Source: Synechococcus sp. M44_DOE_062
Lineage (GTDB): Bacteria; Cyanobacteriota; Cyanobacteriia; Thermostichales; Thermostichaceae
DNA: 64,000 nt
Assembly (NCBI GenBank): GCA_015295985.1
Contig: DVDX01000073.1
Span: forward strand, 1-64,000
Direction: 5' to 3'
Shown: piece by piece, positions 3,695 through 49,898 of the stretch
Layout: every line of letters begins with the position of its first letter
Numbering within the stretch: the stretch's first letter is position 1
The notes under the pieces: generated by a model
Told to the model about the DNA's origin: nothing
Database searches by the model: none
The model's input: the letters and a program-made list of their open reading frames with translations, nothing else
Translations under genes and position numbers: made by a program

Positions 3695-4093
3695 ATGGGG
3701 CAACACCGGCAACGGTTTCGGTTCTCTTTCCGTCAGGCAGTCTTGAAGGGGGGCCTTCTGTTTCTAATCCTGGCTGGCCTGATCTTGGGGACAGGACTGC
3801 CCTCAAGAGCGGCAACCGGCCCCACCTTGTCCGGCAAGCTCACGGGGCCAGAATGGCGCCAAGCAGATCCTGAGGCCAAGCAGGACTTTTGTCGCAGAGC
3901 CTTTCAAGCGTTTCGCACCTCTCCTGCCCAAAGCTATATCATCAGCTCCAATGTGCAGGCTTTGACCCCAGAAGGTTTGTGTCGGCGCTTGGATCAGTTT
4001 TATCAGTATGCCGTTAACGACGAGATCCCGATTAACCAGGCGGCCAATATTGCCCCATTGCTGTTCTCTGATTTACCTCTGGAGCAGCCTTGA
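3695..4093 (+). CDS. Exported hypothetical protein (132 aa)
   Basis: Not assigned to a family. The N-terminus is basic (HRQRFRFSFRQ) and is followed by a leucine-rich hydrophobic segment and a probable signal-peptidase site after SRA, so the mature protein is probably periplasmic or lumenal. The remaining ~90 residues are soluble, with Cys residues in DFCRRAF and GLCRRLDQFYQ that might pair. No good ribosome-binding site precedes the ATG, so the start is uncertain. Confidence 0.6.
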   Translation: MGQHRQRFRFSFRQAVLKGGLLFLILAGLILGTGLPSRAATGPTLSGKLTGPEWRQADPEAKQDFCRRAFQAFRTSPAQSYIISSNVQALTPEGLCRRLDQFYQYAVNDEIPINQAANIAPLLFSDLPLEQP

Positions 4094-4193
4094 TCCTATA
4101 CAGATCGCTATAGATCGCTTGTCCTGCCGAGGGCATAAGGACTTTCTCTTAACCAGTGAGGATCCCAGCCCGGCTGGGGCGGGCTGTCTGGAT

Positions 4194-5516
4194 TCAGACG
4201 GCTATGGGCAGCGATCCCAAGGGGGCGGGGAAGGGGAGCTGCTGCAGTTGCGGCTGTTGGGGGCGGATCCCCATTGCTTGGCGCATGAAGGCAGGCTTGA
4301 GCAGCGGCAAAACCTCCAGTCCCCACAGGCCCAGGCGACGCAAAACCAGCAACGGCCAGCTCTGGTTGGAAAAGAGGCGATTGGCAGCATCGGTTGCGAA
4401 AAGAACCAGCGCATTTTCTGGGCGGCGACAGCGCTCATAGGCTTGTAACAAAGCCGGATCGCCGGGATCCCGACCTGCCAGTTTGGCTTCGATTAACAGG
4501 GCAGCCAAAGCTGCCACATCCCGCATGCCCAGGTTTGCCCCCTGCCCCCCTAGCGGATGGGTGGTGTGAGCAGCATCCCCCACCAAGGCCAGCCGGGATC
4601 CGATGTAGGTTTGGGCATGGGCCCGCTGTGGCTCATAACAGGCTCTAGGGGAGGCGGCCAGCAAGGCTCCCAACTGGGATCCAAACCAGGGCCGGACAGC
4701 CTGCAAAAACTCAGCCTCGGACAAGGCCATCAGCCGATCTCGATCCGTTTGTAGAACTGTCCAGACAACACAACTGCGATGGGGATCGGAGGTGGGCAAA
4801 ATGGCGAAGGGGCCGCTGACCTGAAAGCGCTCGTAGGCCACCTGCCGGTGAGGATGCTCATGGGTGAGGGTGGAAACAATGCACACCTGCCCGTAGCCCC
4901 AGCAGGATAAGGGGATCCCAGCCTGTTCCCGCAGCCGCGAACGGGCCCCATCCGCAACCACCAGCAGAGCGGCCCGCAGGGTTTGCCGGGATCCCTCTTG
5001 AGCCAGCTCTACCCGAATGTGATCTGCGGCAGGGGAGAAACTTTGCACCTGGGCAGGGCTGAAAAGGGTTACCGAAGGGCACCCGCAAATGCGCTGCAAC
5101 AGAGCCTTTTGGGTGATTTGATTGTCCACGACGTAGCCCAGCGCCGACACTTGAACCGTTTCGCGGCACAACCAAACCAAGCAGGGGCTTTCCCCATCAG
5201 AGACCTGGATGGAGTGGATGGGAGAAACTCCCCAGGCTTCCATAAGGGGCCACACCCCAATCCGCTGCAAAATGCGGGCTGTCCCCAGGGCCAAAGCGCT
5301 GGCTCGGCCATCTGGCCCCACCCCCTGTGAGAGATCCCGTTTCTCGATCAGCGCGACGCGAATTCCCGCCTGCCCCAAGGCGGCTGCCAAGGTGGATCCC
5401 ACCATCCCCGCTCCGGCAATCACCACCTCAAAATCCAGTTGCCCTGGCAGGAAGGTGTCCTCGGCTACTGTTGGGGCAATGGCGAGGGGAGCAGTGGAAG
5501 TGGGCAAAGGTCTCAT
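4194..5516 (-). CDS. UbiH/Coq6-family FAD-dependent hydroxylase
   Basis: Class A flavoprotein monooxygenase of the UbiH/UbiF/VisC/Coq6 family, which hydroxylates aromatic rings of quinone precursors. The 440-residue product has the N-terminal FAD-binding VVIAGAGMVGSTLAAALG (near residues 30-50) and the second flavin motif LVGDAAHTTHPLGGQGANLG near residue 320. Cyanobacteria make plastoquinone rather than ubiquinone, so the substrate is probably a plastoquinone-type or related aromatic precursor; that is inference. It is divergent from the PmbA-like gene across about 340 bp in which I see no gene. Confidence 0.85.
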   Translation of the reverse strand: MRPLPTSTAPLAIAPTVAEDTFLPGQLDFEVVIAGAGMVGSTLAAALGQAGIRVALIEKRDLSQGVGPDGRASALALGTARILQRIGVWPLMEAWGVSPIHSIQVSDGESPCLVWLCRETVQVSALGYVVDNQITQKALLQRICGCPSVTLFSPAQVQSFSPAADHIRVELAQEGSRQTLRAALLVVADGARSRLREQAGIPLSCWGYGQVCIVSTLTHEHPHRQVAYERFQVSGPFAILPTSDPHRSCVVWTVLQTDRDRLMALSEAEFLQAVRPWFGSQLGALLAASPRACYEPQRAHAQTYIGSRLALVGDAAHTTHPLGGQGANLGMRDVAALAALLIEAKLAGRDPGDPALLQAYERCRRPENALVLFATDAANRLFSNQSWPLLVLRRLGLWGLEVLPLLKPAFMRQAMGIRPQQPQLQQLPFPAPLGSLPIAV

Positions 5517-46492: not shown

Positions 46493-46915
46493 TCAAAATG
46501 AAGTGGCCTCTTCGAGAATTTTCAGCAGGTGTTGCCGCTGTTCTGGGCTAAGGACTTGCCGCATTTCCAGAACTGCCTCAAAACGTTTGGCATTCACTTC
46601 TTGGGTTAGCTGTTGTACTCGCTGAAATTGAGCTGCCACTTCTGACTCAGGGGCATCGCTGACCAGCAACTCCCGCAATTGACGGCGGGCTGCCCTCCAC
46701 TCCAAAATGCGATCCAACAACTCTTCCTGTTTGCGGTGGCGGATCTGCTGCAATTGCCGCAACTGCTCGTCGGAGAGGTTCAGCTCCCGCAAATTGCGAG
46801 CAAAGGGGCGGCGCAAATCCATCATCCGCAGGGGGCGCGGCTGGCCCATTACCGGTTCACCCAGGGATCCCAGGTACAGGGGCAAGATGGGGATCCAGAT
46901 CCAAGCGTTTCTCAT
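46493..46915 (-). CDS. Spy/CpxP-like periplasmic protein
   Basis: 140-residue helical protein with an N-terminal signal-like hydrophobic segment (NAWIWIPILPLYLGSLGEP) and LNLSDEQLRQLQQIRHRKQEELLDRI, which resembles the LTxxQ region of Spy/CpxP/ZraP-type periplasmic proteins. VLSPEQRQHLLKIL lies near the C-terminus. Known relatives act as envelope chaperones or sensor feedback proteins. It is the last gene of a minus-strand cassette with an ECF sigma factor and a single-TM protein. Confidence 0.72.
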   Translation of the reverse strand: MRNAWIWIPILPLYLGSLGEPVMGQPRPLRMMDLRRPFARNLRELNLSDEQLRQLQQIRHRKQEELLDRILEWRAARRQLRELLVSDAPESEVAAQFQRVQQLTQEVNAKRFEAVLEMRQVLSPEQRQHLLKILEEATSF

Positions 46916-47020
46916 GGTTCTTGTCAGGCTTTTTCTAGGAATCCGGCCAAGGTCTCAGAAGTCTCAACGGTGCAAGGGTCAATTGACAGGGGCCTATTCG
47001 GGTTTGTGAGGTTGATGGAT

Positions 47021-47371
47021 TTAGGATCCCGCTGGATCGCGTTCTATCCACCAAGTTTCGGTTTCTGTTCCCTCTGGGCTCAGCAGGCTTCCCCAGGTGC
47101 TCACCAAAAAACTTTCTAGGGCTTCGGTCTCCTGGGCCACCACCTGTACCTGCCAACGCTGATAGCCAACCCAGCCGAGCAAAGCGCCCGCCAAGAGGGA
47201 GATGCCAACCCAACGCCAGGAGCGCTTGGTTCGGCCATGAAGTGGATGAGTCGCCACAGCCTGAAGGATCTGCTCCTCCAGCCCAGAGTCCGCAGGGGGA
47301 GAGAGGGGGCGATATTGACGCAAAAAGTGGCGCAGCCGCTCTTCTTCAAGGGGATTGAGGTGCTTGCTCAT
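47021..47371 (-). CDS. Single-TM protein, probable anti-sigma factor
   Basis: 116 residues with a soluble N-terminal ~50 residues (EEERLRHFLRQYRPLSPPADSGLEEQILQAV), one TM helix (WVGISLLAGALLGWVGY) and a short outer segment. No zinc-binding HxxxCxxC motif is seen, so it is not a classical ZAS anti-sigma. Its start codon overlaps the stop of the ECF sigma gene (ATGA), which strongly suggests a functional pair. The role is inferred from context. Confidence 0.68.
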   Translation of the reverse strand: MSKHLNPLEEERLRHFLRQYRPLSPPADSGLEEQILQAVATHPLHGRTKRSWRWVGISLLAGALLGWVGYQRWQVQVVAQETEALESFLVSTWGSLLSPEGTETETWWIERDPAGS

Positions 47372-47922
47372 GGGGTAATGCCCTCCTGAAGTAGGTGTTG
47401 ACGGATGGTGGCACGGGCGTGAGACAGCCGGGACTTCACCGTTCCCACCGGGATCCTTAAAATCTCGGCAATCTCTTTCTGGGGCAGGTCTTCTAAGTCG
47501 TGCAGAATCAGAACCATTCTGTGTTCGGGGCTGAGCTGGGCCATGCCTCGCTGTAGAGCCTGTTGGTAGTGCAAGTGCATCAGGTCGGGGCCAGGGTGAG
47601 CGACATCCGATCTAAGAGCCAGGTTTTGGGTTTGGGAGCGTTGCCGGGCGCAGCGTCGCCGCTGATCTGAGGCCACATTCCAACAGATGCGGTACAGCCA
47701 AGTGGAAAACTGGGCCGAGCCGCGAAACCGAGGCAACCCTTTCCAGGCGCGAATAAACACTTCCTGTACCAGGTCATCCAAAAGATCGGCTCCACACAAG
47801 GGATAAAGGATATTCCGTACCGACTGCTGGTATTTGCGGTAGAGTTGGCGAAAGCTCTGGCTGTTGCCGTTGAGGCAGCGCTGGATCAGCTCCCAATCCG
47901 ATGTATCCTTTGCCGCCTGCAC
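47368..47922 (-). CDS. ECF-type RNA polymerase sigma factor
   Basis: 184-residue sigma-70 factor with only regions 2 and 4. Region 2 reads DDLVQEVFIRAWKGLPRFRG and FSTWLYRICWNVASD. Region 4 reads LSPEHRMVLILHDLEDLPQKEIAEIL with the helix-turn-helix and GTVKSRLSHARATIRQ. It is the first gene of a three-gene cassette with a single-TM protein and a Spy/CpxP-like protein. That arrangement is typical of envelope-stress sigma systems. Its own target promoter could lie upstream at 47923-48214, but I did not recognise a matching consensus. Confidence 0.92.
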   Translation of the reverse strand: MQAAKDTSDWELIQRCLNGNSQSFRQLYRKYQQSVRNILYPLCGADLLDDLVQEVFIRAWKGLPRFRGSAQFSTWLYRICWNVASDQRRRCARQRSQTQNLALRSDVAHPGPDLMHLHYQQALQRGMAQLSPEHRMVLILHDLEDLPQKEIAEILRIPVGTVKSRLSHARATIRQHLLQEGITP

Positions 47923-48214
47923 GAGACTGGGCTCCCTTGTTCTCGACCTTGCCTTGTCTGACTCTCAATGTCCCCGAAAGGTTCAAAGGATCCCTGTCTA
48001 CGATGGCCCTCCACTTCCCGCCAAGATACCGGCATCTTCTGATTGCCGTTTTCCCTCGAAAGGTACCCGCCGGCAGGTGTAGACAAGCCAATCCCTCTTG
48101 CCTGTTCGCACTTTCTCAATCCCAATTCTGTTGGATTCTATCGGATCATCGATCTACAATTCCAATAACACCAAAAAGAGGGAATGAAAAGCTGATCTTC
48201 ATAGCTGCCTGGCC

Positions 48215-49211: not shown

Positions 49212-49898
49212 ATGTATCGGGCTGTCCCTATGGTGCTCTTTGGCTTTGGCAAACTTGGCAAGAAACTGTCCCTGCCCAAACCGGAAGAAGCGTTGCCGGG
49301 CCGGGCCGAGCCGATGGTGATCGTGAATCGGCATTTTGTCAACGGCAACCCGCTGCAGCCGCCTTTTCCTGAGGGCATGGAGCTGGCCTTGTTTGGCATG
49401 GGCTGCTTCTGGGGGGCAGAGCGCAGGTTTTGGCAGGTGCCAGGGGTGTTCAGCACGGCGGTGGGCTATGCCGGCGGGTTTACCCCCAACCCCACCTATG
49501 AAGAGGTCTGCACCGGCCTGACCGGCCACAACGAGGTGGTGCGGGTGGTTTACGACCCGGCTCAAGTCAGCTATGCCCAACTGCTGAAGGTGTTTTGGGA
49601 AAATCACGACCCTACCCAGGGGATGCGCCAGGGCAATGACGTGGGCACCCAATACCGCTCCGGCATCTATGTGTATTCTCCGGCGCAGCGGGAGCTGGCG
49701 GAAAAAACCCGCGATCTCTATCAGCAGGCCCTAACTGCCCACGGCTATGGCCAGATCACCACCGAGATCCTGGATGCGCCTGAGTTCTACTACGCCGAAG
49801 ACTACCACCAGCAATACCTGGCCAAGAATCCGCGCGGCTACTGTGGCCTGGGGGGCACCAGGGTTTGTCTGCCGGAGATCCTCACCGAGCCTGCCTAG
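49212..49898 (+). CDS. msrA: Peptide methionine sulfoxide reductase MsrA
   Basis: Repairs methionine-S-sulfoxide in proteins. The 228 residues have an N-terminal extension (about 55 residues), the catalytic Cys in [31 protein letters not shown], the Glu/Asp-containing [26 protein letters not shown] and a C-terminal [12 protein letters not shown] tail with candidate recycling Cys residues. A later ATG at 49230 is possible. It lies 64 bp downstream of potB and converges on the sulfate transporter genes. Confidence 0.94.

Follow-up and report, generated by a model that had tools for sequence, protein, structure and literature searches.

A probable self-activating envelope-stress operon of an ECF sigma factor, a zinc-free membrane anti-sigma candidate and a Spy-like protein in cyanobacteria

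A 64,000-nucleotide stretch of DNA from Synechococcus sp. M44_DOE_062 (contig DVDX01000073.1), which is termed the window here, carries a cassette of genes for an ECF sigma factor, a single-transmembrane (TM) protein and a Spy-like protein. This cassette probably acts as a self-activating envelope-stress switch, in which the sigma factor would drive the sigma/anti-sigma/Spy operon together with a regulon. The three-gene cassette is an old cyanobacterial module. Its gene order is not due to chance, because the order recurs across the phylum. An earlier note, made from the sequence alone, had described a sigma/single-TM/Spy-like cassette at positions 46493-47922, and the open reading frames and profile matches bear this description out. 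The features are as follows.

47922-47368, minus strand: ECF sigma factor gene, 184 aa, GTG start, match to NF009171 over cut-off
47371-47021, minus strand: TM protein gene (predicted anti-sigma factor), 116 aa, ATG start, single-TM and zinc-free
46915-46493, minus strand: gene for a secreted protein of the Spy/CpxP/CnrX fold, 140 aa, matches to PF13801 and PF07813
46916-47020, minus strand: gap between the anti-sigma and Spy-like genes, without ECF motif and without terminator-like site
47957-47985, minus strand: ECF-type promoter of the operon, TGAACC (47985-47980), 17 nt, GTC (47962-47960), then AGA
47237-47371, minus strand: cytoplasmic end of the TM protein, residues 1-45, predicted from the model to be the sigma-binding part, helices 7-19 and 31-41
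47165-47221, minus strand: predicted TM segment, residues 51-69, from hydropathy and helix 51-97 of the model
47093-47119, minus strand: periplasmic motif L-E-x-F followed by W93, residues 85-93, with W93 invariant in 29 orthologs

The ATG codon of the TM protein gene lies inside the stop codon of the sigma gene, giving an overlap of 4 nt. This overlap is exactly 4 nt in all 27 sigma/TM pairs measured (relatives and window).

The sigma factor matches NF009171/PRK12518 over cut-off in the profile search (E 6.7e-82). It also matches PF04542 and PF08281/PF04545 (sigma-70 regions 2 and 4), as well as TIGR02937 over cut-off. Region 3 is absent, as in ECF sigma factors, whose length (approximately 180-200 residues) it shares at 184 residues, and its closest solved structure is that of RpoE (1or7, E 1.6e-21). 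With E 1e-44 as the upper limit, orthologs of the window type are detected in 34 of the 59 genomes searched, the window's own included, and one of them (G004) is truncated. A second, SigG-like ECF sigma factor, which is 34-38% identical to the window sigma factor, is nearly universal in these genomes, even where the window type is missing. A plasmid search with the window sigma factor gives distant ECF sigma factors only, all below 60% identity. In genome G036, which we take to be that of Thermosynechococcus BP-1, the ortholog of the window sigma factor is located at 303.7 kb and the SigG-like gene at 2,195.7 kb, both on the plus strand. Table 1 of PMC2758279 lists Tlr0317 as SigH and Tlr2109 as SigG. 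Because the positions and strands of the two G036 genes fit Tlr0317 and Tlr2109, the window sigma factor is probably of the SigH type, the gene type of Synechocystis Sll0856 and Thermosynechococcus Tlr0317, and the near-universal relative fits SigG.

SigH-type sigma factors occur widely in cyanobacteria, but none of the genes under their control is known according to a 2009 review (PMC2758279, section 31). The review reports no partner protein, promoter rule or targets of SigH. Candidates for all three are given here: the TM protein, the promoter motif and, as predicted targets, genes for Spy-like chaperones and, in some species, for RND efflux. In Synechocystis, according to the papers cited, heat stress (PMC2758279, PMC3264485) and sulfur starvation (PMC2491639) induce sigH late, ethanol raises it mildly (1.6-1.9 in a table of PMC3564720), and high copper lowers it (0.30; PMC4182526). 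The decrease under copper argues against a copper response of the Cnr type.

The earlier note had made its proposal depend on conservation of the TM protein with the sigma factor elsewhere, and had suggested a search for the same three-gene order in other cyanobacteria. Both points are settled in its favor by a set of named genomes, consisting of the best 80 of 552 confirmed ECF loci, of which 23 have at least 40% identity to the window sigma factor and 57 are distant. Among these best 80 of 552 loci, the TM gene is located directly downstream of the sigma gene in 23/23 orthologs, and a Spy-like gene is also present in 22 of the 23, the sole exception being a Gloeomargaritales locus (L068). 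The pair of TM and Spy genes is found at none of the 57 distant loci of the same best 80, where matches to the TM profile are weak (E 1e-3 at best) and the Spy profile is matched once, also weakly. In the 59 genomes, open reading frames were read at 32 of the 34 sigma loci (G039 and G052 were left out of this reading), and all three genes are present in order at 27 of the 32. The exceptions are G004, in which the cassette is replaced, G006, in which it is split between contigs and the TM frame is broken, and G023, G041 and G054, members of one family, in which the Spy gene is not adjacent to the sigma gene. A single-sequence search detects the TM protein in 26 of the 59 genomes, the window's own included, mostly adjoining the sigma gene. 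The sigma factor and a strong Spy match occur together in 30 of the 59 genomes, the sigma factor alone in 4, Spy alone in 3 and neither in 22 (Fisher p 3e-9, a value that treats related genomes as independent, which they are not in this or any other comparison made here).

The named ortholog set reaches Gloeobacterales (L083 and L084) and one contig labelled Nitrospinota (L086). The latter, an 8-kb contig of a metagenome-assembled genome, carries the full sigma/anti-sigma/Spy cassette and its promoter, and its position outside Cyanobacteria reflects either horizontal transfer or a binning error. In G004, which belongs to the same genus as the window genome, positions 46527-47511 of the window have given way to DNA that carries a TnpB-like open reading frame (by eye; L060, 5644-6837), and the flanks are 94-95% identical to the window on both sides. 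The TM gene is lost together with almost the whole Spy gene and the 3' portion of the sigma gene, of which a truncated copy remains behind its promoter. This loss indicates that the switch is dispensable in nature, in line with the Synechocystis SigH mutant, which tolerated all conditions tried in the experiments described in the cited part of PMC3264485.

The TM protein gives no Pfam match over cut-off. The HxxxCxxC zinc motif is absent from it and from all of its orthologs (0/29), and a zinc-type class I anti-sigma factor (ZAS) is thereby ruled out. Sixteen of the 29 orthologs score 17-23 bits with NF052375 ('anti-sigma factor'), whose cut-off is 100, and the TM protein has sub-threshold matches to two NCBI anti-sigma profiles. 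The earlier note saw no match of this protein to a known anti-sigma class by eye, and no curated family cut-off is reached. In the AlphaFold model, the protein consists of two short cytoplasmic helices (7-19 and 31-41) and one long helix (51-97). The hydrophobic stretch of the window protein is modest (Kyte-Doolittle mean 1.12 over residues 51-69) and is clearer in the orthologs (median 1.59, n=29), in which it begins at residue 46-81 (median 57). M1, F16, L17, P25 and W93 are invariant in the 29-row alignment, and F16, L17 and P25 are invariant or nearly so in both TM protein alignments. Excerpts of PMC7406223 give the size of the class I anti-sigma domain as 101 +/- 33 aa and describe very low similarity as usual between anti-sigma classes. 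The TM protein is closer in size to the CnrY class II domain than to the class I domain, because its cytoplasmic end is short (approximately 45 aa) and contains two helices. A short two-helix cytoplasmic part followed by a single TM helix, as seen in the model, is the layout of the CnrY type (class II). Sequence similarity between the TM protein and CnrY is not detectable (hhalign probability 0.3%). These results suggest that the TM protein is most likely an anti-sigma factor working like CnrY, without being filed as a proven member of that class, and that its cytoplasmic end, as modelled, would bind the sigma factor. A fold search with the model gives long-helix matches only (E above 1) and is uninformative, and the best solved relative of the anti-sigma profile, TFIIS (E 0.53), is judged to be a chance match.

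An upstream scan of the sigma gene gives TGAACC, 17 nt and GTC in most orthologs. The fixed pattern TGAAC-N18-GTC, searched from -300 to +120 of the sigma ORF start, is found in 23/23 orthologs of the best 80 of 552 loci and in 23 of the 29 members of a second ortholog set. It is found at 3 of the 57 distant ECF loci among the best 80 of 552. Three of the six misses in the second set (L005, L006 and L015) are TAAACC versions. The aligned sites share bases beyond the pattern, T before it and TAAA after it. The window promoter ends in GTCAGA and therefore does not match the strict pattern TTGAACC-N17-GTCTAA. An ECF promoter thus precedes the sigma gene, as in a self-regulated operon, and its use by the window sigma factor is predicted. 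The idea that the Spy gene has an ECF promoter of its own is rejected, the motif being present in 0/26 gaps before this gene. Because the promoter before the sigma gene is conserved and none is found in the Spy gaps, the three genes are most likely organized as one self-activated operon; on this comparative ground, the sigma, anti-sigma and Spy-like proteins would probably be produced together under control of the sigma factor. In the portion of PMC2758279 that deals with sigH (section 31), an RpoE-like promoter is reported at one of the two start points of the Synechocystis gene, and this report agrees with the motif found here.

The strict pattern TTGAACC-N17-GTCTAA gives 26 sites in the 59 genomes. 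The genomes with the window-type sigma factor (n=34) contain 23 sites versus 3 for the reversed-pattern control, and those without it (n=25) contain 3 versus 5. Eight of the 26 sites precede the sigma gene, five precede tandem-LTXXQ Spy genes, one precedes a gene for an HlyD-type adaptor and one a gene for an AcrB-type permease. Three more precede open reading frames with envelope features (by eye), and most others are located inside or opposite open reading frames. A looser pattern, TGAACCNTT-N14-GTCWRA, gives 21 sites, 17 with the sigma factor (control 5) and 4 without it (control 3), a result that points in the same direction less sharply. The short motif is present just upstream of 11 of the 20 weaker Spy-like genes fetched (10/17 in genomes with the sigma factor and 1/3 in genomes without it). 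The strict-pattern sites exceed the control only in genomes that have the window-type sigma factor, and a regulon transcribed from them is predicted.

In the window's own genome, a site (G000:C7:158650-158625) is located 22 nt before an adaptor gene (PF16576, 3e-27), which is followed by an RND permease gene (PF00873, 1.3e-278). When the best adaptor orthologs of 43 genomes are compared, the motif is present at 8/24 in genomes with the sigma factor versus 0/19 in genomes without it (p 0.006, or 0.011 when the own genome is omitted); 16 of the 24 adaptors in sigma-bearing genomes are without the motif. Within the genus, the motif is present at the adaptor in all three genomes with an intact sigma factor, and G002, which is without the sigma factor, has the adaptor with the motif missing. 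G001 and G004, also of this genus, give no adaptor match. A short-core search of the own genome gives 19 sites versus 62 for the reversed control, most of them inside or opposite other open reading frames. Most single sites are therefore due to chance, because their number is below the control. Four of them look intergenic and precede the operon, the RND adaptor gene, a gene for a secreted Ser/Thr-rich protein and a gene for a ferredoxin-like protein. The secreted Ser/Thr-rich protein, which matches one site-bearing protein weakly (E 7e-4), is not claimed as a target. Secreted, repetitive Thr/Asn/Gly-rich proteins that are 47% identical to each other are encoded behind such promoters in G013 (L284) and G044 (L295). 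A protein of the window genome (L153, G000:C58) is vaguely similar to them and perhaps belongs to the same group.

The Spy-like protein matches PF13801 Metal_resist (2.6e-12, 47.4 bits) and PF07813 LTXXQ (1.3e-8, 35.9 bits), both over the gathering score. It has an N-terminal signal-like stretch (a signal peptide by eye), and AlphaFold models it as a hooked hairpin of four helices (36-45, 49-85, 90-121 and 124-139). These profile matches, fold and apparent secretion place it in the Spy/CpxP/CnrX superfamily. The top three structural matches are CnrX (Z 11.6), CpxP (10.0) and Spy (9.4), differences that do not choose among the three proteins in the case of helical bundles; in terms of sequence profiles, the solved structures that match best are those of Spy (3oeo, 1.2e-10). 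The metal ligands of CnrX/NccX are H42, H46, E63, H119 and M123, of which E63 and M123 appear in PDB titles among the structural matches. Only M123 is aligned with Met in the Spy-like protein, which contains two His in all, neither of them at a ligand position. A CnrX-type metal sensor is ruled out, four of the five ligands being missing. The Spy-like protein is probably an output of the switch, perhaps with feedback, because other Spy paralogues have the same promoter; its role as an effector, which had been suggested earlier as one of two possibilities, thus gains support. Spy and CpxP have the same fold and Pfam families, and the window protein, like them, is predicted to respond to an envelope-stress regulator. 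Spy and CpxP are controlled by the Cpx or Bae two-component systems, whereas the window protein would be controlled by the ECF sigma factor of its own operon.

The closest parallel is CnrYXH of Cupriavidus metallidurans (cobalt/nickel resistance), in which an ECF sigma factor, a short zinc-free single-TM anti-sigma factor and a CnrX-fold protein are likewise clustered. RND-pump genes are targets of CnrYXH and, by prediction, of the window-type system in some species. The two systems differ in gene order (sigma/anti-sigma/Spy versus Y-X-H), in the anti-sigma factor, which has no sequence similarity to CnrY, in the CnrX metal ligands, which are largely missing from the window protein, and in the RND genes, which are located elsewhere in the genome, unlike those of the cnr locus. 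It is unlikely that the Spy-like protein is a sensor that holds the anti-sigma tail in the periplasm, much as CnrX would act on CnrY, and lets go of it when misfolded protein or some other ligand binds. The presence of the same three kinds of protein, the closeness of the fold to CnrX by a small margin, the tight linkage of Spy to the window-type sigma factor and the RND-pump genes among the predicted targets, as in the cnr locus, would be expected of such a sensor. CnrX, however, is first made as a membrane-anchored protein, whereas the Spy-like gene is the last of the operon and its product looks secreted; most of the CnrX metal ligands are missing; and other Spy paralogues are preceded by the same promoter, as outputs would be. 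Moreover, the W motif of the anti-sigma tail is kept in L068 without an adjacent Spy gene, and is missing in L083-L085 and L222 despite an adjacent one. An output with feedback is rated well above a sensor for this protein. The broader idea of a phylum-wide counterpart of CnrYXH, with a non-metal Spy chaperone as sensor, whose titration by misfolded proteins frees SigH for the synthesis of Spy chaperones and some RND pumps, is quite improbable.

The off-operon TTGAACC-N17-GTCTAA sites may serve another ECF sigma factor, such as SigG, with the window sigma factor controlling its own operon only. An AAC core is common to ECF -35 elements, the short core is present at 3 of the 57 distant ECF loci (best 80 of 552), and G040 has a tandem-Spy site although its window-type sigma factor is missing. 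This explanation is nevertheless rather unlikely, since the excess over the control is found only with the window-type sigma factor, though a SigG-like ECF sigma factor is present nearly everywhere, and since sites at RND adaptors are distributed in the same manner (8/24 versus 0/19). It is very unlikely that the TM protein has no anti-sigma role and is a small membrane protein whose only tie to the sigma factor is joint translation. The missing zinc motif and the failure to reach the cut-off of any curated anti-sigma family are compatible with it. The linkage at 23/23 loci (best 80 of 552), the 4-nt overlap, invariant where measured, the invariant residues in the cytoplasmic end and the sub-threshold matches to two NCBI anti-sigma profiles argue against it.

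The self-activating switch would operate as follows. In the resting state, the sigma factor would be kept at the membrane by the TM protein, whose two short cytoplasmic helices would bind it in a zinc-free, CnrY-like way. The sigma factor would be set free, through proteolysis or a conformational change, when a periplasmic signal reaches the tail beyond the TM helix. RNA polymerase with the released sigma factor would then read the TTGAACC-N17-GTCTAA promoters located by comparative genomics. The operon of the sigma factor itself is a predicted target in nearly all species. Tandem-LTXXQ Spy paralogues are added in many species, and an HlyD-type adaptor with an AcrB-type RND pump in some, the window's own genome included. 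The Spy-like products may protect periplasmic proteins, and negative feedback would come from the anti-sigma factor made at the same time, perhaps with a contribution of the Spy-like protein. In this way, a Cnr-like set of genes may be used against general envelope stress rather than for metal resistance.

The window pair resembles E. coli RpoE-RseA, in which an envelope-stress ECF sigma factor is likewise combined with a zinc-free single-TM anti-sigma factor; RseA, however, has a larger class I domain, whereas the cytoplasmic end of the window protein is only approximately 45 aa. In cyanobacterial SigG-SapG, according to the pertinent part of PMC2758279, the ECF sigma gene is cotranscribed with that of an interacting downstream partner, as is proposed here, but SigG is a different ECF type with 34-38% identity to the window sigma factor. 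No Spy profile match is found beside the SigG-like gene of the window genome. In the openly licensed literature, as far as its text was covered, nothing is found on the cassette or on sll0857/sll0858, and the match for LTXXQ with cyanobacteria concerns ammonia oxidisers only, although such absence is no proof of novelty. The ECF promoter TTGAACC-N17-GTCTAA is new here; the conserved self-promoter, the probable SigH identity, the likeness to CnrYXH and the RND-pump genes go beyond the earlier note.

The Gloeobacterales-type anti-sigma tails (L083-L085 and L222), from which the L-E-x-F...W motif is absent, end in a shared (F/Y)A(I/V)DP.T.LY.(V/L), and the periplasmic input in this lineage may therefore be different. 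In L066, a second Spy-like gene (4004-4414) is located right behind that of the cassette, as a local duplication. Near the cassette, an open reading frame on the other strand (window positions 49212-49898) is MsrA-like (methionine sulfoxide reductase) by eye.
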